DNA from: Ilex aquifolium
Lineage: Eukaryota > Streptophyta > Magnoliopsida > Aquifoliales > Aquifoliaceae
Assembly: GCA_951799425.1 (NCBI GenBank)
Contig: OX637392.1
Span: forward strand, 55,938,093-56,002,092
Reading direction: 5' to 3'
Length of the DNA: 64,000 nt
Shown here: in pieces, positions 2,531-26,058 of the stretch
Numbering within the stretch: position 1 is the stretch's first letter
How the letters are laid out: each line of letters starts with the position of its first letter
Position numbers and translations under genes: made by a program
The notes under the pieces: generated by a model
What the model was told of the DNA's origin: nothing
Databases searched by the model: none
What the model saw: the letters and a program-made list of their open reading frames with translations, nothing else

Positions 2531-4261
2531 TGTTTTGCTATTGATCGTCTGTTTATTGCTCATTAATTGCACCATTACGTATACTCGGCTGTTGATCTTG
2601 CGTAATACCGATTTGTGCATCATCATTTGTGATTGTGGTTGATTTGTTTTGTTTCGATTTTGGGTAAATCACATTTATTTGATATTATGATTGTGGATGT
2701 ACTCATATTAGGTATTTTCTTTCAAAAATCCTTGATTGTTGCACTGTATTGCTATTTAAGTTTCATAAAATACACAAATCATATAATTATTGAACCCTAG
2801 TTTGTATGGATGATTGTGGTTTTTTTTTTTTTTTTTTTTGGTTTTTGGGTAAATCACATTTTTTTGAGTTAATAATTGTGAACGTAGTACACTGTATTGC
2901 TACACTTTTAAGTTTATGACTTAAAAGTGTCAGTTTATGAAGTAATTTTTTCAATGAACACTGTGTTGACACACTTTGAAGCCGCACATCCAATATTGTT
3001 TGGAAATTGTTTAAATGTATGAATTCACTTTTTAGAATGTGATGATTGTAAATATTTTTTCCTTCCTCAGTCATGGCCAAAAAAAGAATGTCATCCAACA
3101 AAAAAAATGAAAATCAGATGGAGAAATTCGATGTTGGACCAAAGTGTGGGGAAATCATCGACGGACAACATTCCTTCCGAAACCAATAGGAAAATAACAT
3201 GCATAGCAATATTCAATGTGTTCAAATACGAAATTGTGAACAAAAAATCACATTAATAAAAAAATGTTAAAATTGACAAACAATATTTTGAACAAAACAG
3301 ACAAACAAAAAACGTGACCACTCAAACAATCAGTTGAAACGAAAAAATAGAAACAAACAAAAGAACCAAAAATGAATGAAAGTATAATTTCAAACTTAAT
3401 AATGGCTGAACGTTGGAGAAGAAGAATAAAAAAGAAAACTGATTGGTTAAGAATAAGGACGATTACTTAACGTTAAATAGTTAGAAAAGAAGGAGAAAAA
3501 AAAATAAACAATGGAGAAGTAGAACAATAATAGCTAATAGTTGGATAAGAAAGAAGAATATATGTTTGATAGCAAATATACTGAAAATATAATTTAAAAT
3601 TCAAAACGTATGAGGATGTAAAGAATAAACGTTAATGGCAATATACATATTATTTGGTGTACCCCTTCACAATTCTCCATTACAAAAACAAGGTTCATTT
3701 TGTTAGCAAAAATGTCATTATAAAGGATAGGCAAAGCCCATTTGTGGCAATCAAATTTGGAACCGTTCATTAATATTTTTGGACAAATAAATATACCACG
3801 TTAATCTTCTCACGAAGAAAAATACGTTTAAACTTGATCTCGCCAATTTGGAGGTGTAAGTCCCACTTTAATGTAAACCCAAAATTATTTAAATACACTT
3901 TGTCAAAACCATTTTTTCCAACAATCATAACCTGAATGTAATCCGAACACTTCAATTTGAGAATTATTGATACTTAAGTTTCGACCTTGGACAAAATTGG
4001 AGTCACACAACTCTTAACTACAACTCAAGGTTAGATTCTTGAATTCGGTTTTCGAGTTTTGATTAGGGTTTTATCTCAAGTTTAAATCGGGTTAGTTTTT
4101 GCTGTTATACAACTAGGACTGAATTAGGTTCAATTCGGGGTGAATTCTAATTAATTAATTTGGGGTTTGAAAATTCGAGACTCTAATCCAAATAGTATCT
4201 GAATATATGGCTTTGATTGTTCCCGAATCCAGTTCAAGTATGAGACATCCTTGTCCAGATA
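2531..4261. other. Spacer between two CACTA elements, no gene seen
   Basis: AT-rich DNA without a credible reading frame. A short motif around GGGTAAATCACATTT with a following ATTGTGGATG or ATTGTGAACG block is repeated at about 2663 and 2847, so a local duplication is present. A T homopolymer lies at 2820-2839. Nothing else was recognised. Confidence 0.6.
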
Positions 4262-5335: not shown

Positions 5336-5586
5336 AAAAATCTTCATGACAAAATTTGTGTGCTATTTGGATAGTACAAGTACTTGAATATGCGATAGAC
5401 ATCATGTATTCAGTATTTAGGAAGTCTCTATCGGACTAAAAGTTACGACTAAATCAAATTAAGTAAGATTCAAAAACACTAAGTCGCAACTTAATTGGAC
5501 CGAGTTAAGATTGATATGAAAACTTAGGATAGTTCAAATTACTTATTAAGATTTGAAACTTTATTGAGTAATGATTTTGACCTTAT

Positions 5587-6312
5587 CACTACAACAAAAA
5601 TCGTTTTTTGCGACGATTTTTTTCGTCGCTAAATTAAAAAAAATCGTCGCAAATTATTTTTTGCGACGTTTTTTTTTCGTCGCGTGTTCGTCGCAATAGC
5701 CTCGTCGCAAAAAGTATTTTGCGACACAAATTTATTTTCATCGCAAAAAAAAATTATTTGCGACGAAAAAAAAACGTCGCTAAAAGTTATAAAAACGTAG
5801 CTAAAACCTGTTCCACCAGCGTAACAAAATAAAAAATAATAATTTAATTAATTTTTCGCGACGTAAAAAAATCGTCGCGAATAATTTTTTACAAAAATAA
5901 AAATGTAAAAAATAATAATTTAATTAATTTTAGCGACGTAAAAAAAATCGTCGCCAATAATTTTTTACAAAAATAAAAAAATAAAAAATAATAATTAAAT
6001 TAATTTTTAGCGACGAAAAAAAATCGTCGCCAATAGTTTTTTACAAAAATAAAAATATAAAAAAATAATAATTAAATTAATTTTTAGCGACGTAAAAAAA
6101 TCGTCGCAAATAGTTTTTTACAAAAAATAAAAAATAATAATTTAATTAATTTTTAGCGACGTAAAAAAAACGTCGCAAATAATTTTTTACATAAATAAAA
6201 ATGTAAAAAATAATTAAATAAATAAATTTGCGACGTATAAAAATCGTCGCGAAAAATATTGTTCCTACAATTTTCGCGACGATTTTAATTTCGTCGCAAA
6301 AAAGTTCTTTTT
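5587..6312. repeat. Left subterminal repeat array of CACTA B
   Basis: About nine blocks of GCGACG-(T/A run)-CGTCGC are separated by AT-rich spacers such as TTTTTTACAAAAATAAAAA and TAATTTAATTAATTTTT. Block spacing is around 75-80 bp. The array is the mirror image of the array at 1985-2510 in element A. Confidence 0.85.
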
Positions 6313-6464
6313 TTTTTTTAAATAATTCATAAAAATTGATATTCCAATAAAATTTTTCACCTGTACACCAATAATATATGTGTTCAATAAAAAACTAACA
6401 TAATTAATACATTTCACATATTTTCCATTCAACATACATTTCACATCTTTTAAAAAAAAAAAAA

Positions 6465-6910
6465 AAATTTATTTCGAAAAAGAATGAATTACAAGAATCA
6501 AAGAACCAAAAGTTCTAAAAATTAAAAAAATGGCTTTAATCCTTCAAGAGGATTTAAATCATCTCCAATTACATTTAATGTCTCTTAAACTTGAACAGCT
6601 CCAGCAGTCCAGCTCCATGCCTTGAAATCGACTTTTCCAAGGTCAACAGATCAGTACCAACCCAGACTGAAGTCGGATCAGATAAATCAGGCCACAGTGC
6701 AGGTGCCTGATCCATTCAGCTCCAGGCACTTTACAACAAACAGCACCCTCTGAACATCATTCCATCTCAGCATATCTACAACATTCCAGCTTCACCTGCT
6801 GCTCATCAGCACTGCACAGACTGCAATAGTACAGACTGCTAAACATGCACTCCTCATTCTAACAAAAACTGCACTTCAGAATTCAGCTCATGAAATTAAC
6901 TCAACACTGC
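6465..6910 (-). other. LINE-like 3' end in CACTA B
   Basis: Read on the minus strand the segment contains CCTCTTGAAGGATTAAAGCC, GGTTCTTTGATTCTTGTAAT, TCATTCTTTTT and GAAATAAATT. These blocks match 1785-1890 of element A in order. It would supply the poly(A) signal for any minus-strand transcript of the element. The preceding 300 bp, rich in CTG and CAG, has no open frame. Confidence 0.55.
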
Positions 6911-7415
6911 AAATATGGCAGTAGCTTATTGTAGAGGTTTTCATATATATCATGATGCAGACACACCAACTGCCAGAAGTTGAACACATCTACATATACA
7001 CGCGGTGGTCGACATGATAAAAAGAGAAAAAAAAAGTGTATTAATTACAGACCTATGATTATGGTATAAGCAGAGCAAAAGAACCGATCAGAAGGCTCAG
7101 ATATGTGCTATTGGGGAACAAAACAGAAGAAAAAGGAAACTTCTAGTCAATGGATCACTTAGTCTGAGCTACATTTTTTTTTGGGTCATTAGTTTGAGCT
7201 ACATGACACAAAGTTCTTCAAGCTTATACATAAATTACAGGAAACAAAGTCTCTGGAATCTAAGATCAAAGAGCAAACTAAAATGCTCAACGAAAAAGAA
7301 AACAAATTGATTAGTTCGTAGAATACTGAAAAGTATAACCACAAAGGGCGAATAAAATAAAAGCTCAAGTGCACAATAGTAGAAAAAGGAAAAGAAAAGA
7401 GAGTTTAATAGGTAC

Positions 7416-7466
7416 CTGCAACTATTAGAGCAGCTATAATTGCTTTGACTCTTCTATCATTTGAAT
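7416..7466 (-). pseudogene. Isolated exon-like segment, origin unknown
   Basis: A 51 bp minus-strand segment is bounded by a TTTCAG acceptor and a GCAG/GTACC donor. One frame reads SNDRRVKAIIAALIVA. It lies between the ClpP exons and the LINE-like 3' end, so it could be another captured exon of the chimeric transcript. The gene of origin was not recognised. Chance splice-like boundaries cannot be excluded. Confidence 0.3.
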
Positions 7467-7870
7467 CTGAAACAATTAATCGTGTCATTTTTTCAGACAA
7501 GCATTTTATGATGGCAGAAGGAATTGGGGTAAAAGAATCTCAGCAAAAATACATAAAAATTTTGATTTCTAAAATCTGATCCTAGAATAATTTGGAGAAG
7601 CATAACATGGACTTCTCAATAGATCGAAGGATTAGGTTTGTTGAAGCAAAATGATGGCAGGCAGCAAAAAACAATATTGGGGTGCTAACGAAAGATACAA
7701 TATTTGATGTTTGATCGATTTCTCAAGCTTGACTAGAAATGGAAAACAAAGCAAAACTTGTTTAACCTATGGTGCACTAAGATAACATCATTCGGCAGCA
7801 AAAAAAAAACGTAGTACACCATTAATGTAGCGAAGGCTGGGTAAAGTTTACACACCAAGAATTGTCATTG

Positions 7871-9438
7871 TTACTGGTCTGCAGTAGCCGCCAGAGGCTG
7901 GAGAGCTTTTAGAGGATTCATGATAACACCATCTATAAGCCCATATTCTTTAGCTTCTTTAAATTGATGAAAAAGTCACGATCAGTATCCTGATTGATCT
8001 TTTCTAGGCTTTGACCAGTGTGGTAAGAAAGATATTCATTCAAGTTTGTCTTGTGATGCAACATTTCATTAGCCTAAGCAATAAACATGATCGCTACTGA
8101 TCAGAGCCGTGAGCAACACAACAAACAAAGTCAGAAGGTCCAGCAGAAAATACAAATAGACAAGTTCCAACAGGAGAGACCTTTTCAAACCAATACTCAA
8201 TCAAAAATATAACTACCTATTTAAACAGTCACATTGGGTTTCCTTTGACCTCTTATTACAACATGTTGCCCATGGAAAAAACCTCAAGATGTTATTAACG
8301 TATTGTTCCAATTTCTTTTTACACCATCTCAGGAAAAGTCATTCCAATTAAATTAACAGCTCCAACATATATGAGGACATGCTTAATTGCTATTTCATGA
8401 AGCTTGAAGGAAAAATAGAAACTAGATAAAAATGAAAATCCATATGCAAAGTCATAAAGAAAAATTGTAGCTCATTAACAGAAATCATAGAGGTCCTAAA
8501 CACAAGATAAAATCAAATCAAATGCGAAGCAAAAAAGGAACTGGTCAACTGAATGAAAAGAAAATGGAGCCAGTTCACATCAAATTGTTGACCACTGTGC
8601 CTTCAAGAATCTACACATATAATGAACACCGGACTTCCTCAAAAAATGGGTAATTTAATTTCCCAATAGATCACATGCATTTTATTGTGTCTGCTGTATT
8701 AAATTAGACGTGCAATATGTGATAGACTAAGAAACAAAGATCCCTAGCAAGAAATAATGGGCAGTTGCATACCTGAATATCTATGTCAGTCTGTCCACCT
8801 TGTGCTCCACCAAGAGGCTGATGGATCATTATCCTTGAGTTTGGAAGGCTATATCTTTTTCCTTCAGTAACCGTTACGAATAGAGAGAGAATTGATTTAA
8901 GCAAGAAAAAGTCATAAAATAGAATTCAAATCACTCATAAATTTGTCAAGTTATTTACCTTTGGTGCCAGCACTGAGCAGAAAAGCCCCCATACTGTTCA
9001 TAAGAAATAGAGAATATATCCATTATGAAAAGCATATTCTTGTAACATGACTAACAAAAAAGAAATGCAATATAAAATTTCCCCATAAATTATAAAATTA
9101 AATGCTGGAATGTACATCTGCAGATAGGCTAGAAATAATGAGAGAAGAAATAGCCAGCCAGCCCCATGACAGCAACAGTGCACATAAAAAAAAACTTCAT
9201 GAAGTATTTTACATGAACTAATGTTCTAATAGGTGGCATGAAAATTGTTCAACAATTTTATTGTATTATGACTATACGCACCGATCAAGTATTGAATAAA
9301 AGCTTTATAATTATTAAATATCCCCTTTTATTATTGTTCACAAAACATGCACCAATGAATCTTTTACCTAGCCGCTAGTCCAACACATACAGTGGAAACA
9401 TCAGGTCGGATATGCCTCATTGTGTCGAATATGGCCCC
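7871..9438 (-). pseudogene. Captured ClpP protease gene fragment (nuclear CLPP5-like), four exons
   Basis: Minus-strand exons at about 9438-9368, 8993-8959, 8861-8773 and 8073-7871 spell the C-terminal part of a plastid-targeted ClpP catalytic subunit: [34 protein letters not shown] (containing the catalytic Ser context), [18 protein letters not shown] with [11 protein letters not shown] (catalytic His), and ANEMLHHKTNL with YLSYHTGQSLEKINQDTDRD (catalytic Asp region), then GLIDGVIMNPLKALQPLAA and a TAA stop. The introns have GT/AG borders and the phases join. Exon 4 carries a 1 bp deletion after RDFF (around 7960), so the frame is broken. The N-terminal part (transit peptide and first half of the domain) is absent. 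Its position inside a CACTA element shows capture. As a protease gene it is dead; transcription is possible. Confidence 0.9.
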
Positions 9439-11574
9439 ACTATTCAACACCCATTCATCCCATCAAGAAAGGCAATCATGCATTATGATTATCCACGTTG
9501 AGTGTCACAGTCATCCAACAGCATCATGACTAATGGAGAGATGAAAACAGGTAAACTTGATTACCTCTTGTCAACAGTTTGTTGAATCCTAGTTTCTAAA
9601 ACCTTCATTTAGATAATCTCTTCTTCGTGTTTCCAAAAACCCAACTGAACATGCTCACCTCTTCATGTCATTCCCACACATGTCATCTGCATGTTGTTTC
9701 TTAACAGGATTGCATTCTTTTTCACAACATATAATTTATTTTACTAATTATGCAACGGAATTATCCTTTCAAATCATCCAATAATTGTTTATCAAACAAC
9801 ACTCTGGGAAACATGTCTCCACATCATTATTCATGCCCTCATTTAGGCACCCACATATTTATCTGACCCTTTTTTAATTATAAACAAGAAAAGAAAGCGG
9901 ACACTCTCATATTGTCACTTGGACATTCATCTTCACATTCAATCAGTTGGAGAACTGATATTACTTAATAACGATCTGAAATACTTTCTATTACATTGGT
10001 AAGTCTTATACGAATTAAAGTTGATTCATCTCTTCATTTCCTAGACCACCGACGTAAGACCCATAGCTGCAACCTTGTGTAATGTTCTGTCAACAAAATT
10101 ATTGAACATGAACAAAATTTTCCTTTTTCCTAGGAAAAAAGGGCATAATGTCTAATTACTAATATCCCTTTCGATTTCCATGAATCATAAAGAATCAAAG
10201 CAAATAATTAAACCATTCTATTAACCACAAGCAAGATAAATATACAATCATTGGTTCATATGAACTCTCGAAATCAAACACCAACACTTACAAATTGGCA
10301 ACCTAGTCTTCCAACCTCACTCTAATCCGAAAATATCAGCAAAATTGTTTGAGACCGCCTCTGAAGAGCATCTTCTTATCACTTGTTTACACTTGTAACC
10401 GTTCCAATTTCCACTTTCCATATTTGACTTGTTTTTTTCTATTTCCACCCACCATATAAATAAAACTTAAGAATTATTCTTGTACTAGTGCCACTACATA
10501 AGATCTCAAATCCAAAGAGGCCATTTGAAGATTAAATGACATCCACCACGAAAATTGTAGAAGTTCCATAAAATAGGATAGCATAGTCAAACACATAGGA
10601 TATTCATTTTCATGAAGGACATTCAGGAACCCCTTTCATTTAGAAACACAATAGTTAGCTCACTACGACATAGGCTAGGGCTAGTGACTTACATCAGCTA
10701 GATGAATCCTCTATTTTCCACCCCCACTCCCTTCTAAACAATTAGTACCTCCAACTTCCCTCCAGTCCATTCATTCACGCACCTATACTTTCTTGTTTTG
10801 CCAGTCAACAATCTAAATATCCACAATTCAATTCTTCCATCTAATAAATGCATACTCCTGTAGCTACTAAATTATAAACACAACACAATTTTCTATTTAT
10901 TTCATGCCTACTGCCATTGCAACCAAAAAATTTATACTCTTGAGTCTTGATCATTACGAACTTTGCTATATTCTCATTCTCTCTTAGTCCACAAATTTCT
11001 ATGCCCTTAATCTCCAACAACAAGGCATCAAGTCCATGCAGCATGAGCATGAACATATATCATAAAATTATGAGTATACACTGTCCACATATAAACAAAT
11101 ACTCATATACATTCACACATACAATGTGTGCGGGGACGCACCCATACAAAATCAAGAGATAGATATCGTGGTGAAAGTTGAAATTAACCGCTCTCCCAAT
11201 AAAGGGATTCAGGGTATGCTGTTAAAAGTAGTAGGTCTGTTGAATTTTAGTCCAACATTTATGGGTTCAAAATCATTGTAATTTATAAAACTTCCCCCAA
11301 ATGAGAATTGAAACCTTTGAGCTCAAATTTCCAACACAATGAACAAAATTTTTCTAACATTTTCAACCCACCAAACTTCATCGCGCATAATTTCCACCAA
11401 ACTTCATTTTGATTTCAAAGAATTCAAGCACTGTGTGTTCACTGTGTTGTACAATTGCAAAATTAAAAAAAAAAACTGCAACATAAAATACCCAAACTAA
11501 GAGAGACATATATTGGACTGAGACAGAGAAAAGAAAAAGGGGGAGTGACCGAGAGAGAGGGGGAAACTCACTTC
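9439..11574. other. Interior of CACTA B, no recognisable gene
   Basis: AT-rich, with only short open frames lacking domain resemblance. It sits where an intron between the GC-rich exon-like stretch (11575-11790) and the ClpP exons would lie. CACTCTCATATT-like and other scattered motifs show no repeat structure that I can see. Confidence 0.5.
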
Positions 11575-11790
11575 ACCGGTTTATGACTGGATTCGCGGCT
11601 GGGCACTGGACTGGACCTCGACTGCCTATTGCTCGCTCGGTGGACTGGTGGAGTCGCTGCACTGGATCGTTGGTGGTGGAAGTTTGGAACCGTGGAGGCG
11701 AGGCTGTGCCGCTGTGCTGCGAAGTCGCCTGGTCTGGAGGAGTGGAGTCGGCTGGACTGGAGTCTGGATCGATTTAGATGTTAGGGCAAC
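11575..11790 (-). other. GC-rich exon-like stretch in CACTA B
   Basis: This 215 bp stretch is markedly more GC-rich than its surroundings and lies at the 5' side of the minus-strand ClpP fragment. It has no convincing frame on either strand; the plus-strand frames are short and lack domains. It may be a 5' UTR, a first exon of a captured gene, or the element's own promoter-proximal exon. Confidence 0.35.
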
Positions 11791-11904
11791 AAAACAAAAC
11801 AAAAGGAGAAAAAAGAAAAGGGGAAAAAAATATAAGATTTATACTAATGCAATCAAACTGTCCGGTTTGTCTAACTCGGCCGGTTTTAATTTACAAAAAA
11901 TTTT

Positions 11905-12195
11905 ACTATCTGCGACGTTTTTAGAAAACGTCGCGAGAAAATAAGAAAATTGCTATTTATTTGCGAAAAGGTTAGTATTAGCGACGTTTTTTTAAAAACG
12001 TCGCGAAAAAATAATTGCCTTAAAATTTTCAATTCCCCCCATTTCTCTCGCAAAAAGATTACTCAGAGGGAATTGCCTTTTCGCGACGTTTTTAAAAAAC
12101 GTCGCAAAAAATAATTATATTTTTATCGTTTAAATTTTTAATTTACGAAAAAAGTTTACTATTGGCGACGTTTTCCAAAAACGTCGCGAAAAAAT
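11905..12195. repeat. Internal GCGACG/CGTCGC repeat block of CACTA B
   Basis: Four GCGACGTTTT...AAAACGTCGC palindromes occur at about 11911, 11980, 12083 and 12163. They belong to the right subterminal repeat family. They are cut off from the main right array (17335-18350) by the minisatellite at 12305-17310. Confidence 0.8.
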
Positions 12196-12304
12196 TAGTA
12201 GATTATTATTTTTTAAATTTTTATTTATGAAAAAAGTTAGTATTAGCATAAATTTTTAAGTAGATTGTTATTTTTAAAATTTTTATTTTTTAGTACTTAC
12301 GAAA

Positions 12305-15300
12305 AAGTTTACATTTATCAAATTAACACTAAAATAACATTCAGATTCTTATTTTTAACATTAAACTAATCAAATAAACTTTCAATTTCATTCAATTAAA
12401 ACTCAAATTCATCAAATTAACATTCAAATTATCAAATTAACATTCAATTTCATCAAATTAACATGTAATTTCATCAAATCGACTTTCAATTTCATTAAAT
12501 TAACATTCAATTTATCAAATTGACATTCAATTTATCAAATTAACATTCAATTTATTAAATGTACATTCAATTTCATCAAATTAACATGTAATTTCATCAA
12601 ATCGACTTTCAATTTCATTAAATTAACATTCAATTTATCAAATTGACATTCAATTTATCAAATTAACATTCAATTTATTAAATGGACATTCAATTTCATC
12701 AAATTAACATGTAATTTCATCAAATCGACTTTCAATTTCATTAAATTAACATTCGATTTATCAAATTAACATTCAATTTCATCAAATTAACATTCAATTT
12801 ATCAAATTGACATTCAATTTCATCAAATTAACGTTCAATTTATGAAATGTATATTCAATTTCATCAAATCGACTTTTAATTTCATTAAATTAACACCCAA
12901 TTCTTCAAATTAACATTCAAATTATCAAATTAACATGTAATTTCATCAAATCGACTGTCAATTTCATTAAATTAACATTCAATTTATCAAATTGACATTC
13001 AATTTCATCAAATTAACATTCAATTTATCAAATTGACATTCAATTTCATCAAATTAACGTTCAATTTATGAAATGTATATTCAATTTCATCAAATCGACT
13101 TTCAATTTCATTAAATTAACACCCAATTCATCAAATTAACATGTAATTTCATCAAATCGACTTTCAATTTCATTAAATTAACATTCAATTTATCAAATTG
13201 ACATTCAATTTATCAAATTAACATTCAATTTATTAAATGTACATTCAATTTCATCAAATTAACATGTAATTTCATCAAATCGACTTTCAATTTCATTAAA
13301 TTAACATTCAATTTATCAAATTGACATTCAATTTATCAAATTAACATTCAATTTATTAAATGGACATTCAATTTCATCAAATTAACATGTAATTTCATCA
13401 AATCGACTTTCAATTTCATTAAATTAACATTCGATTTATCAAATTAACATTCAATTTCATCAAATTAACATTCAATTTATCAAATTGACATTCAATTTCA
13501 TCAAATTAACGTTCAATTTATGAAATGTATATTCAATTTCATCAAATCGACTTTTAATTTCATTAAATTAACACCCAATTCTTCAAATTAACATTCAAAT
13601 TATCAAATTAACATGTAATTTCATCAAATCGACTGTCAATTTCATTAAATTAACATTCAATTTATCAAATTGACATTCAATTTCATCAAATTAACATTCA
13701 ATTTATCAAATTGACATTCAATTTCATCAAATTAACGTTCAATTTATGAAATGTATATTCAATTTCATCAAATCGACTTTCAATTTCATTAAATTAACAC
13801 CCAATTCATCAAATTAACATGTAATTTCATCAAATTGACTTTCAATTTCATCAAATTAACATTCAATTTATCAAATTGACATTCAATTTATCAAATTAAC
13901 ATTCAATTTATTAAATGTACATTCAATTTCATCAAATTAACATGTAATTTCATCAAATCGACTTTAAATTTCATTAAATTAACATTCAAATTATCAAATT
14001 AACATTCAATTTCATCAAATTAACATTCAATTTCATCAAATTAACATGTAATTTCATAAAATCGACTTTCAATTTCATTAAATTAACATTCAATTTATCA
14101 AATTGACATTCAATTTCATCAAATCGACTTTCAATTTTCATTAAATTAACATTTGATTTATCAAATTGACATTCAATTTCATCAAATTAACATTCAATTT
14201 CATCAAATTAACATGTAATTTCATCAAATCGACATTCAATTTCATCAAATTAACATTCAATTTATCAAATTGACATTCAATTTCATCAAATTAACATGTA
14301 ATTTCATCAAATCGACATTCAATTTCATCAAATTAACATTCAATTTATCAAATTGACATTCAATTTCATCAAATTAACATTTAATTGATCAAATTGACAT
14401 TCAATTTATCAAATTAACATTCAATTAAACATTTAAAGTAATCATATAAACTTTCAATTTCATTAAATTAACACCCAATTCATCAAATTAACATTCAAAA
14501 TATCAAATTAACATGTAATTTCATCAAATCGACATTCAATTTCATCAAATTAACATTCAATTTATCAAATTGACATTCAATTTCATCAAATTAACGTTCA
14601 ATTTATGAAATGTATATTCAATTTCATCAAATCGACTTTCAATTTCATTAAATTAACACCCAATTCATCAAATTAACATTCAATTTCATCAAATTAACAT
14701 GTAATTTCATCAAATCGACATTCAATTTCATCAAATTAACATTCAATTTATCAAATTGACATTCAATTTCATCAAATTAACGTTCAATTTATGAAATGTA
14801 TATTCAATTTCATCAAATCGACTTTCAATTTCATTAAATTAACACCCAATTCATCAAATTAACATGTAATTTCATCAAATCGACATTCAATTTCATCAAA
14901 TTAACATTCAATTTATCAAATTGACACTCAATTTGATCAAATTAACATTCAATTTATGAAATGGATATTCAATTTCATGAAATCAATTTTCAATTTCATT
15001 AAATTAACATTCGATTTATTAAATTAACATTCAATTTATCAAATTGACATTTAATTTCATTAAATTAACATGTAATTTCATCAAATCGACTGTCAATTTC
15101 ATTAAATTAACATTCAATTTATCAAATTGACATTCAATTTCATCAAATTAACATTCAATTTATCAAATTGACATTCAATTTCATCAAATTAACGTTCAAT
15201 TTATGAAATGTATATTCAATTTCATCAAATTGACTTTCAATTTCATTAAATTAACACCCAATTCATCAAATTAACATGTAATTTCATCAAATCGACTTTC

Positions 15301-17310
15301 AATTTCATTAAATTAACATTCAATTTATCAAATTGACATTCAATTTCATCAAATTAACATTCAATTTATCAAATTGACATTCAATTTATCAAATTAACAT
15401 TCAATTTATTAAATGGACATTCAATTTCATCAAATTAACATGTAATTTCATAAAATCGACTTTCAATTTCATTAAATTAACATTCAATTTATCAAATTGA
15501 CATTCAATTTATCAAATTAACATTCAATTTATTAAATGGACATTCAATTTCATCAAATTAACATGTAATTTCATCAAATCGACTTTCAATTTCATTAAAT
15601 TCACATTCAAATTATCAAATTAACATTCAATTTCATCAAATTAACATGTAATTTCATAAAATCGACTTTCAATTTCATTAAATTAACATTCAATTTATCA
15701 AATTGACATTCAATTTCATCAAATTAACATTCAATTTATTAAATTGACATTCAATTTCTTCAAATTAACATGCAATTTCATCAAATCGACTTTCAATTTT
15801 CATTAAATTAACATTTGATTTATCAAATTGACATTCAATTTCATCAAATTAACATTCAATTGATCAAATTGACATTCAATTTATCAAATTAACATTCAAT
15901 TAAACATTTAAAGTAATCATATAAACTTTCAATTTCATTAAATTAACACCCAATTCATCAAATTAACATTCAAAATATCAAATTAACATGTAATTTCATC
16001 AAATCGACATTCAATTTCATCAAATTAACATTCAATTTATCAAATTGACATTCAATTTCATCAAATTAACGTTCAATTTATGAAATGTATATTCAATTTC
16101 ATCAAATCGACTTTCAATTTCATTAAATTAACACCCAATTCATCAAATTAACATGTAATTTCATCAAATCGACATTCAATTTCATCAAATTAACATTCAA
16201 TTTATCAAATTGACACTCAATTTGATCAAATTAACATTCAATTTATGAAATGGATATTCAATTTCATGAAATCAATTTTCAATTTCATTAAATTAACATT
16301 CGATTTATTAAATTAACATTCAATTTATCAAATTGACATTTAATTTCATTAAATTAACATGTAATTTCATCAAATCGACTGTCAATTTCATTAAATTAAC
16401 ATTCAATTTATCAAATTGACATTCAATTTCATCAAATTAACATTCAATTTATCAAATTGACATTCAATTTCATCAAATTAACGTTCAATTTATGAAATGT
16501 ATATTCAATTTCATCAAATTGACTTTCAATTTCATTAAATTAACACCCAATTCATCAAATTAACATGTAATTTCATCAAATCGACTTTCAATTTCATTAA
16601 ATTAACATTCAATTTATCAAATTGACATTCAATTTCATCAAATTAACATTCAATTTATCAAATTGACATTCAATTTATCAAATTAACATTCAATTTATTA
16701 AATGGACATTCAATTTCATCAAATTAACATGTAATTTCATAAAATCGACTTTCAATTTCATTAAATTAACATTCAATTTATCAAATTGACATTCAATTTA
16801 TTAAATGGACATTCAATTTCATCAAATTAACATGTAATTTCATCAAATCGACTTTCAATTTCATTAAATTCACATTCAAATTATCAAATTAACATTCAAT
16901 TTCATCAAATCGACGTTCAATTTATGAAATGTATATTCAATTTCATCAAATCGACTTTCAATTTCATTAAATTAACACCCAATTCATCAAATTAACATTC
17001 AAATTATCAAATTAACATTCAATTTCATCAAATTAACATGTAATTTCATCAAATCGACATTCAATTTCATCAAATTAACATTCAATTTATCAAATTGACA
17101 CTCAATTTGATCAAATTAACATTCAATTTATGAAATGGATATTCAATTTCATGAAATCAATTTTCAATTTCATTAAATTAACATTCGATTTATTAAATTA
17201 ACATTCAATTTATCAAATTGACATTTAATTTCATTAAATTTACATGTAATTTCATCAAATCGACTTTCAATTTCATTAAATTAACATCCAAATTAACATG
17301 TTCATTAAAT
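12305..17310. repeat. 5 kb AT-rich minisatellite, 20-21 bp unit
   Basis: Roughly 240 units are variants of CAATTTCATCAAATTAACATT (21 bp) and CAATTTATCAAATTGACATT (20 bp). Longer-period copies are present: the rare variant GACTTTTAATTTCATT recurs at 12871 and 13549 (678 bp apart); ATTTAAAGTAATCATATAAAC recurs at 14431 and 15906 (1475 bp apart); TCGATTTATTAAATTAAC recurs at 15011, 16300 and 17185. The array has expanded by duplication of large blocks as well as single units. It is non-coding. Confidence 0.95.
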
Positions 17311-17334
17311 TGATATTTTTTATTAAAGTAAAAT

Positions 17335-18350
17335 GATTATTGGCGACATTTTTTAAAAACGTCGCGAAAAGTCAATTACATTTGATTTTTTTAAAATTTT
17401 TTATTTAAATAAAATGATTATTGGCGACGTTTTTAAAAAACGTCGCGAAAAGTCAATTACATTTGATTTTTGTTGTAAATTTTTTATTTAAGTAAAATGA
17501 TTATTGGCGACTTTTTTTAAAAACGTCGCGAAAAGTCAATTGCATTTGATTTTTTTTAAAGTTTTTATTTAAGTAAAATGATTATTTGCGACGTTTTCTA
17601 AAAACGTCGCGAAAAGTCAATTCCATTTGATTTTTTTTAAATTTTTTATTTAAGTAAAATGATTATTTGTGACGTTTTCTAAAAACGTCGCTAAAAGTCA
17701 ATTGCATTTGATTTTTTTTAAATTTTTTATTTAAGTAAAATGATTATTGGCGACGTTTTTTAAAAACGTCGCCAAAAGTCAATTGCATTTGATTTTTTTT
17801 AAATTTTTTATTTAAGTAAAATGATTATTGGCGACGTTTTTTAAAAACGTCGCGAAAATTCAATTGCATTTGATTTTTTTAAAATTTTTTATTTAAGTAA
17901 AATGATTATTGGCGACGTTTTTTAAAAACGTCGCGAAAAGTCAATTCCATTTGATTTTTTTTAAATTTTTTATTTAAGTTAAATGATTATTGGCGACGTT
18001 TTTTAGAAACGTCGCGAAAAGTCAATTTCATTTGATTTTTTTTAAATTTTTTATTTAAGTAAAATGATTATTGGCGACGTTTTTTAGAAACGTCGCGAAA
18101 AGTCAATTCCATTTGATTTTTTTTAAATTTTTTATTTAAGTAAAATGATTATTGGCGACGTTTTTTAAAAACGTCGCGAAAAGTCAATTGCATTTGATTT
18201 TTTTTAAATTTTTTATTTAAGTAAAATGATTATTGGCGACGTTTTTGAAAAACGTCGCGAAAAGTCAATTGCATTTGATTTTTTTAAAATTTTTTATTTA
18301 AGTAAAATGATTATTGGCGACGTTTTTTAAAAACGTCGCTAAAAATATTG
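17335..18350. repeat. Right subterminal array of CACTA B, 13 x ~81 bp
   Basis: Thirteen near-identical units of about 81 bp start near 17337 and end near 18340. Each holds AAGTAAAATGATTATTGGCGACG, a T/A run, CGTCGCGAAAAGTCAATT and CATTTGATTTTTTT. The GCGACG-TTTTT / AAAAA-CGTCGC halves form a perfect palindrome in most units. Three shorter GCGACG motifs follow up to the terminus. Confidence 0.95.
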
Positions 18351-18867
18351 CTAAAACTGAAATTTGCGACGAAATTAAAAAATCGTCGCTAATAATAAAC
18401 TATTTGCGACGAATTTAAAAACGTCGCAAAAAAAAAACGTCGCAAAAAATGATTTTTGTTGTAGTGTTGAATCGTAACACGTTTCACACTCGTGGGATGG
18501 AATTAATGAGGCATCACTACAACTTTGAAAGTAACACGTTTTGGACTAATACCAACAAATATGTTACTTGTTGAATGGGCAAAGCCCCCATTCACCAATG
18601 TTGATTCTTTCTTGTCCTTAACAATGGCCTAACAAGGTTGCTTGTCAAGCTTTCCCAGTCCTTGTTCATAGTTTCTTCGCTTATCCATTAATACAAGATC
18701 TCATGGAGGACTATAGCTAATCAAGTACACATGCATTTTATTATTTAAGCTTGTTTGTTGACCAAGCTTAATTGACCAATATATATATATTGTTGGAGAC
18801 AAAAATACAGGATTGGTGGCATCCAGCCTTCTGTCCATAAGAAACTAGGAAAATTATTGAAAATACG

Positions 18868-24188: not shown

Positions 24189-24231
24189 CACAAGTCCATT
24201 ACTTCATTGATGACACCATAAACAAGTTTAC

Positions 24232-26058
24232 ATGGCAATGGCTTCTCTTCCATCTCCAACCACCGCCACCGCCAATGGCCGCTCTTCCTCCTCCACCACC
24301 ACCCCTCATTCCACCTTGCTTTCCTCTCCTTTCTTGGCCAAGACATCAAGATTTTCCGTACATACAAAGCGTAACTATCGCTTCAAAACTTCAATCAAAG
24401 ACATTGATGGTGAGAGAAACCCTACTCCAATCTCTAAGAATGGTGAACCTCCTATGGGAAAGTTTGATCGGAGAAATTTGCTTATTGGGTTAGGAGGGCT
24501 CTACGGTGCTGCTAGTCTCAGTTCTGACCCATTAGCCTTTGCAGCACCAGTGTCAGCGCCGGACCTTACAAAATGTGGTGCCGCAGACTTGCCGGCCGGA
24601 GCAAAACCCACCAATTGTTGCCCTCCTCCGGCGACAAAGATCGTCGACTTCAAGCTTCCGCCGGTGAACGCCATGCGTGTCAGACCGGCTGCTCATTTGG
24701 CCGACGCTGAATACAAAGCTAAATTTAACAGAGCCATTCAACTCATGAAGGCTCTTCCTGACGATGATCCTAGGAGCTTCAAGCAACAAGCCAATGTTCA
24801 TTGTGCTTATTGCGATGGAGCTTACGATCAAGTTGGGTTTCCAGATCTTGAGCTTCAAGTTCACAGTTCATGGCTGTTCTTTCCATTTCATCGGTACTAT
24901 CTCTACTTCTTTGAGAGAATCTTAGGAAAATTGATCGATGACCCAACTTTCACAATGCCATTTTGGAACTGGGATGCTCCCGGCGGCATGCAGTTGCCGG
25001 CGATGTATGCCGATAAGAACTCACCACTCTACGACAGTCTTCGTGACGGGAAACACCAGCCTCCTACTATGATTGATCTGGATTACAACGGTTCTGATCC
25101 AAATATAAGCAATGCACAACAACAGTCACAAAATCTCACTATCATGTATCGTCAAATGGTGTCTAATACAAGGAGTGCTCGTCTTTTCTTTGGAAGTCCT
25201 TACCGTGCCGGCGATGAGCCAAATCCCGGTGCTGGCTCCGTCGAGAACATCCCTCATGGTCCAGTCCATATCTGGGCCGGCGATCGAACCCAACCTAATA
25301 TAGAAGACATGGGTAACTTCTACTCAGCTGCTCGAGACCCTATATTCTATGCTCATCACTCGAACATTGATCGAATGTGGACTATATGGAAAACCCTGGG
25401 AGGAAAAAGACAGGACTTGACCGACCCAGATTGGTTAAACGCTTCGTTCGTCTTCTACGACGAGAACGCCAATCTGGTTCGTGTTCAGGTCAAAGACTGT
25501 CTTGATACCACAAAGCTCGGATATACCTACCAGAATGTGGACATTCCATGGCTGAACTCTCGTCCAACACCACGTTTAACGAGGGTTGTGAGGAAGATAA
25601 AGAAGCTCGGATTGGCCAAAGCCGCCGACACTTACATGGCCGACGATGTTTTTCCGGCGACCCTTGACAAAGTATTGAAAGTAATGGTCAAGAGGCCGAA
25701 GAAATCGAGGAGTAAGAAAGAGAAAGACGAAGAGGAGGAGGTACTGGTGATAGAGATAGAGGTGGACAGAGACGTGTTTGCGAAGTTTGATGTGTTTGTG
25801 AACGATGAAGATGAGGCGACTAGTGGACCGGAAAAGAGTGAGTTTGCAGGGAGCTTTGTGAATGTGCCTCATAAGCATAAACATTTGCATTTACATAAGC
25901 ATGGGAAGAAGATAAAGACTCGTCTGAGGATAGGGTTAACAGAGCTGTTGGAGGACTTGGGTGCTGAAGATGATGAGGGAGTTATGGTGACCTTGGTGCC
26001 AAGAAAAGAGTGCAATGGTGTCACCATTGGTGGTATCAAGATTGAGCTCGATGATTGA
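24232..26058 (+). CDS. Polyphenol oxidase (catechol oxidase), thylakoid lumen
   Basis: Intronless 608-residue type-3 copper oxidase that oxidises o-diphenols to o-quinones (browning, defence). Residues 1-75 are a Ser/Thr-rich plastid transit peptide. A twin-arginine lumen signal follows (DRRNLLIGLGGLYG, R80-R81), with likely cleavage after AFA at 104. Cys115, 129, 130 and 191 fit the conserved disulphides. CuA ligands are His190, 211 and 220, with Cys194 for the Cys-His thioether. CuB ligands are His342, 346 and 376. Glu338 fits the water-guard position and Phe363 the gate residue. A DWL linker domain (about 396-446) and a C-terminal KFDV shielding domain (about 470-608; KFDV at 518-521) complete the usual architecture, so it should be functional. 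Oddities: a strongly acidic/basic stretch at 486-503 and a His-rich run at 547-557 with six His. The first ATG lies 44 bp after a TATA box; a second ATG two codons on is possible. Confidence 0.97.
   Translation: MAMASLPSPTTATANGRSSSSTTTPHSTLLSSPFLAKTSRFSVHTKRNYRFKTSIKDIDGERNPTPISKNGEPPMGKFDRRNLLIGLGGLYGAASLSSDPLAFAAPVSAPDLTKCGAADLPAGAKPTNCCPPPATKIVDFKLPPVNAMRVRPAAHLADAEYKAKFNRAIQLMKALPDDDPRSFKQQANVHCAYCDGAYDQVGFPDLELQVHSSWLFFPFHRYYLYFFERILGKLIDDPTFTMPFWNWDAPGGMQLPAMYADKNSPLYDSLRDGKHQPPTMIDLDYNGSDPNISNAQQQSQNLTIMYRQMVSNTRSARLFFGSPYRAGDEPNPGAGSVENIPHGPVHIWAGDRTQPNIEDMGNFYSAARDPIFYAHHSNIDRMWTIWKTLGGKRQDLTDPDWLNASFVFYDENANLVRVQVKDCLDTTKLGYTYQNVDIPWLNSRPTPRLTRVVRKIKKLGLAKAADTYMADDVFPATLDKVLKVMVKRPKKSRSKKEKDEEEEVLVIEIEVDRDVFAKFDVFVNDEDEATSGPEKSEFAGSFVNVPHKHKHLHLHKHGKKIKTRLRIGLTELLEDLGAEDDEGVMVTLVPRKECNGVTIGGIKIELDD

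Follow-up and report, generated by a model that had tools for sequence, protein, structure and literature searches.

The DNA analysed here (the window) is a stretch of 64,000 nucleotides from the holly Ilex aquifolium, located at C2:55938093-56002092 in a genome of 800 Mb in 103 contigs. It houses a CACTA element in whose interior lie minus-strand exons of CLPP5, a nuclear gene encoding a ClpP protease of the chloroplast (Table 1). The ends of the element fall at 5587 and 18466, and 28 of the 29 terminal bases compared are matched between them, just as an earlier note on this DNA had claimed. At up to two mismatches CACTACAACAAAAA was found at ten places (shuffled sequences average 2.03), with exact copies only at these two positions. 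Genome-wide, termini of the two types numbered 428 and 409 at up to two mismatches, and a reversed-pattern control gave 0 and 0. Homologous elements elsewhere start at this left base, and those on C18 and at C10:19.19 Mb also stop at this right base. GCGACG palindromes are present in both subterminal arrays. The internal satellite extends over nearly 5 kb; the element on C18 is shorter (10,245 bp), apparently owing to this array. No transposase was recognised by eye among the open frames of 9441-12000, and the genome profile search gave no Transposase_21 match in the window among the matches listed; the element is apparently a non-autonomous, gene-carrying CACTA (Pack-CACTA) element. Within the first 2,530 bases of the window a degraded second CACTA-type end lies at 2530-2517 (CACGACAACAAAAA, one mismatch), near repeats of the GCGACG type, and by eye the sequence at about 1800-1900 is similar to the reverse of 6460-6560. 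On the other side of the element, 24214-26058 is an open frame of 614 codons that has no introns and encodes a polyphenol oxidase of the chloroplast type, with Tyrosinase, PPO1_DWL and PPO1_KFDV domains.

Table 1. Features of the CACTA element and its CLPP5 cargo (window coordinates)
Feature	Position	Strand	Remarks
Whole CACTA element	5587..18466		12,880 bp; exact CACTACAACAAAAA ends at 5587 (+) and 18466 (-)
Terminal inverted repeat	5587..5615	+	Element's 3' end by transcription, CG type
Subterminal array	5822..6257		76-bp unit x5.8; GCGACG/CGTCGC palindromes
36-bp stretch, possible filler	7461..7496		97% identical to C8:11455413-11455448
Captured CLPP5 genomic fragment	7524..9436	-	Exons, introns, 3' flank
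Junction block TTGGGGTAAAAGAA	7524..7537		Also in donor gene, exactly in five of the six loaded copies, and in three other-cargo elements
Last CLPP5 exon, aspartate context	7871..8073	-	Reaches stop codon; frame broken at about 7961-7966
CLPP5 exon, histidine context	8773..8861	-	
CLPP5 exon SMGAFLLSAGTKG, serine context	8959..8993	-	
CLPP5 exon piece	9368..9436	-	Lacks its 5' edge and acceptor; retains its donor site
Second segment, other source	9441..11400		No coding signal recognised
Transposon family 5' region	11474..11900		Recurs in dozens of genome-search rows (query 2034-2460)
AT-rich satellite array	12355..17291		Basic unit of about 21 bp; higher periods of 41 and 62 bp
Subterminal array	17315..18344		81-bp unit x12.7, 95% matches
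Terminal inverted repeat	18438..18466	-	Element's 5' end by transcription, CA type

The four CLPP5 exon pieces together encode the stretch from AIFDT through to the C-terminal LAATADQ. The contexts of the three catalytic residues of ClpP, serine (AASMGAF), histidine (RIMIHQP) and aspartate (DTDRDFF), are free of gaps in the alignments with two solved ClpP chains among the matches listed, as are the first 99 residues as a whole (best E 1.9e-48), and this upholds the original identification of the C-terminal half of CLPP5 with all three catalytic contexts. Two of the window exons were matched by a genome-wide Clp profile (E 8.7e-8 and 4.8e-6), so the likeness to CLPP5 is not due to chance. The earlier note had described four exons with intact splice borders; three donor and three acceptor sites are indeed intact, but the first piece begins about 5 nt inside the exon of the donor gene and therefore has no acceptor. 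The damage to the last exon, read at first as a single 1-bp deletion, is actually a compound lesion, common to four copies, in which three bases are substituted and one is deleted within 6 bp. A functional CLPP5 gene would have an open frame for a transit peptide and the complete protease; the window copy lacks the N-terminal half and has a broken frame. The stretch extends beyond the stop codon into the 3' flank of the gene, and since introns and 3' flank were kept, capture was from DNA and not from a transcript, as had been proposed.

A Clp profile search of the whole genome gave 47 matches. Searching the genome with the window fragment returned 15 rows, and all 14 candidates were scored; the matches comprise six elements loaded with CLPP5, on four contigs (the window, C18:13.54 Mb, C10:11.63 Mb, C10:19.19 Mb, C11:15.49 Mb and C2:46.00 Mb), three smaller pieces (344 bp at C4:13.97 Mb, 168 bp at C17:21.33 Mb and 82 bp at C17:13.59 Mb), and two genes. 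Capture presupposes another CLPP5 gene in the host, as was recognised at the outset, and these two, on C4 (651.5-654.5 kb) and C19 (1.13 Mb), have exons covering the whole protein: both show exon stretches that correspond to residues 1-297 of the 298-residue Arabidopsis sequence, and no stop within exons (splicing judged by eye). The C4 gene appears from its sequence to be intact. Its identity to the window, C18, C11 and C2:46.00 Mb copies is 95.4-95.7% across introns and 3' flank, and the window fragment matches C4:652735-654517 at 95% over query 1-1780, with a further 99-bp block at 100%. The C19 gene matches the fragment at 72-73% for the long pieces, and at 90% for one short exon. On the strength of this contrast, which includes the introns and 3' flank, the C4 gene is identified as the donor. 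The first intron of the fragment measures 374 bp; that of the donor is 1,427 bp long.

The target-site duplication of CACTA (En/Spm) elements is short, at 3 bp. Both ends could be seen in four of the six loaded copies (the window, C18, C10:19.19 Mb and C11), and one end only for C10:11.63 Mb, into which roughly 5.7 kb of other DNA has inserted, and for C2:46.00 Mb. Perfect 3-bp target duplications flank the copies on C18 (TAA), at C10:19.19 Mb (TCA) and on C11 (TCT), where the final base of the right end is altered; copies at other sites with such duplications demonstrate mobilisation of the cargo. The window copy itself has no target duplication (TAT at 5584-5586 and TTG at 18467-18469), though its closest copy, on C18, has one, and a search with its joined 300+300-bp flanks found no empty site elsewhere, returning only its own two halves and a 53-bp internal repeat, so that the insertion of this particular copy is not proved from its flanks. 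The lack of a duplication would suit a resident CLPP5 pseudogene with CACTA ends inserted around it or there by chance. That reading is refuted by the dispersed copies, in which the same junction between element and CLPP5 recurs at sites that are unrelated to one another and show perfect target duplications; moreover CLPP5 homology stops inside the ends, at 7524 and 9436, where the earlier note had held that exons running past them would mark a resident gene. Its probability is vanishingly small. With a donor on C4 and six dispersed loaded copies, the capture of a host gene by a CACTA element, as the earlier note had it, is supported, and it is very probable that a Pack-CACTA element captured part of the C4 CLPP5 gene, was then dispersed, and now carries it as passive cargo.

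The element on C11 (L013, C11:15484000-15493900) matches the donor without interruption over 3.75 kb at 95.5% (L013:3007-6760 against L009:3257-7018); the match begins partway through an exon, near residue 137, and reaches into the 3' flank. At the 5' edge of this cargo, at 2864-3058 of the same locus, exon 1 of a phytocyanin gene stands in frame with the CLPP5 exon, with a nonsense codon further on. The phytocyanin donor lies at C4:2354448-2354854 (96%), and GAAC is common to both sides at the C11 join. Its exons at C4:2354 kb match the Cu_bind_like profile (E 0.0035, a match of 17.7 bits that lies under the cut-off of 20.8, and E 5.4e-11), and it is by these exons that the gene is identified as a phytocyanin. 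A Pfam scan of the 65-residue phytocyanin-ClpP5 piece of C11, and of a 44-residue exon whose gene is presumably CFL1/WW-like, gave no match. Two elements on C14 match the upstream part of C11 over query 1-1213 of 1227; neither gave a row in the fragment search, and the one that was fetched had no CLPP5 match. The latter (L039, C14:7517600-7522900) is a sister element whose cargo includes phytocyanin among several pieces; not far from it, at C14:7554857-7560640, there is another element like it.

The window, C18 and both C10 copies have in common the shortened intron, the compound lesion and the join to the second segment of cargo, 9441..11400. This segment matches four pieces of C20:21836568-21838806 at 98, 94, 98 and 93%, and C13:26658161-26659978 at 94-87%. 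Relative to C20 it has three deletions, each of roughly 80-110 bp; the idea that these gaps are lost exons was rejected, because the alignment looks like one of simple deletions, two of the three having short matches at their edges as judged by eye, and no coding signal was recognised. Its likeness to C20, of up to 98%, suggests that the segment was probably acquired later than CLPP5.

At the opposite edge of the CLPP5 cargo lies the 14-bp block TTGGGGTAAAAGAA, exact in the window, C18, C10:11.63 Mb, C11 and C2:46.00 Mb copies and not in that at C10:19.19 Mb, whose match begins at window 7525, one base inside the block. Three further elements, on C9, C16 and at C2:53.79 Mb, carry the same element sequence up to and including this block. 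Beyond it the C9 element continues into satellite and the other two into cargo derived from C5, with AAAAGAA shared at the join of that cargo. The sister elements with C5-derived cargo (L036 at C16:13747200 and L037 at C2:53793600) thus hold other host-derived cargo at the junction used by CLPP5, with matches at C5:573950, C12:29408696, C3, C2 and C16. In these three elements the block may equally be microhomology used at capture or a leftover stub of CLPP5; the stub reading draws on the 344-bp and 168-bp CLPP5 stubs that stand at the same junction at C4:13.97 Mb and C17:21.33 Mb. A tentative proposal, about which we hold rather more doubt than confidence, is that the family behaves as a serial gene-swapping cassette, in which cargo is repeatedly trimmed from one side and replaced beside the fixed junction at 7524-7537 by template-switching repair synthesis at short matches, the in-frame phytocyanin-ClpP5 fusion being one product.

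One relative, L040, is alike at the 3' end (83.6% identity to window 5586-6547 in 988 aligned columns) and bears transposase-type coding on the minus strand (DUF4216 E 9.5e-22, DUF4218 E 2.3e-17 and a Transposase_21 match); the related transposase is represented by this one locus, seen at its 3' end. Very probably an ancestral element took up 3.75 kb or more of the C4 gene, introns and 3' flank included, in the interior position where this relative has its transposase, perhaps by copying with template switching while a break, or the gap left by an excision, was being repaired. The loaded element then transposed, with transposase presumably supplied in trans, to give the six dispersed loaded copies and the stub-only copies; in the window-type lineage CLPP5 was shortened, suffered the compound mutation and was joined to the C20/C13 segment before its four copies spread.

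The direction of coding in L040 places the CLPP5 exons in sense with transposase, which would fit a reading in which sense chimeric transcripts from CLPP5-bearing elements give rise to small RNAs that tune the C4 gene. Also in keeping with such a role, the C4 gene contains exact copies of 1,114 of the fragment's 1,879 21-mers, and of the 313 21-mers in the four C4 exon stretches 253 are matched. Exact matches are, however, expected from common origin alone, and the second gene, on C19, with 76 of 1,879, would be largely out of reach. Regulation of this kind seems improbable, and the captured exons appear to have no present function.

The behaviour of the exons since capture was assessed in an alignment of window 7538-9297 with the five other elements and the C4 gene, the compound lesion being omitted. 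Among the six elements 10 of 322 exon columns are variable, as are 36 of 1159 columns of introns and flank (p = 1.0); since exon and intron columns vary alike, the captured exons have, by this measure, been free of constraint after their spread. Pairwise comparisons without the lesion gave an exon rate below that of introns in 10 of 15 element pairs and above it in the other five (all with C2:46.00 Mb), and none of these contrasts is significant (lowest p 0.22). A higher exon rate seen at one stage in five of six element pairs was discarded: it rested on counting the compound lesion as three changes, and reverses without it.

Columns in which all six elements differ from the C4 gene are distributed otherwise, with 0/322 in exons and 27/1159 in introns (p 0.002). 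When polarised with C19, the element stem shows no exon changes (0/322) against 10 in introns (10/1159, p 0.13) and the donor branch 0 against 9 (p 0.22), and 8 intron changes could not be polarised. Constraint on the donor accounts for part of this scarcity of exon changes; the stem pattern hints at constraint on the captured exons before their spread, or at intron change on the donor side. The former would accord with a working chimeric protein made now or once, for example from the C11 fusion, with its phytocyanin start in frame. Yet all six loaded copies carry disabling changes, namely the frameshift in four, an in-frame stop in the histidine exon of C11, and, at C2:46.00 Mb, replacement of His by Asn in RIMIHQP together with a missing exon. 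Given also that exons vary like introns after spread, a working chimeric protein is contradicted for the copies in the assembly examined, and is as a whole highly unlikely.

The earlier note took the capture to be recent. In the four copies aligned, introns have diverged by 2.9-3.7% from those of the donor, which does not fit that view, and what is recent, as judged from the 12 mismatches and two gaps in 5,612 columns that separate the window copy from that on C18, is only the last jump of the window copy. If 7e-9 substitutions per site accumulate each year, an intron divergence of 3% would represent about 2 My, and the split between the window copy and C18 would lie about 0.15 My back, both as orders of magnitude only, as the true rate in the host may differ.

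Pack-CACTA elements are known from Arabidopsis, rice and maize (PMC8903248; review PMC13317346). As far as the accessible parts of the first of these reports go, the holly family resembles them in having CACTA ends that enclose coding DNA of the host, cargo drawn from more than one locus and a set of related copies, and differs in the 5-kb satellite array inside the window element, in the retention of introns and 3' flank over 3.75 kb in one copy, and in a target duplication of 3 bp rather than the 5 nt given for rice and maize CACTA elements (PMC8903248). Tgm-Express1 of soybean (PMC1947982) is likewise a CACTA element composed of several unrelated gene fragments with exons and introns kept; in the portion of that report available it lies in an F3H intron and its fragments are spliced into transcripts, whereas the element described here is known from sequence alone. 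The CACTA-like elements of Chenopodium (PMC8978399) also combine gene fragments with internal satellite arrays, but the fragments described in the available part of that account lie beside a transposase domain, one of them (AP2) being only 80 bp, in contrast to the kilobase-size cargo found here. A literature search pairing CACTA with CLPP5 found no report, and one on CACTA, ClpP, transposon and capture apparently gave genome papers only, judged from the listings. The CLPP5-bearing family is thus a further, well-documented example of Pack-CACTA, and gene capture of this type was already known.

The donor, an early capture that is still nearly complete (C11), descendants that have been trimmed, siblings with only a stub and a transposase-bearing relative are all found in one assembly, and because all these stages survive together the order of capture, trimming and replacement can be read directly. 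The order of Pack-CACTA cargo can therefore be set against the published tandem-insertion model. Exon shuffling here went as far as an in-frame fusion and then died, which provides a baseline against over-reading captured genes as functional.
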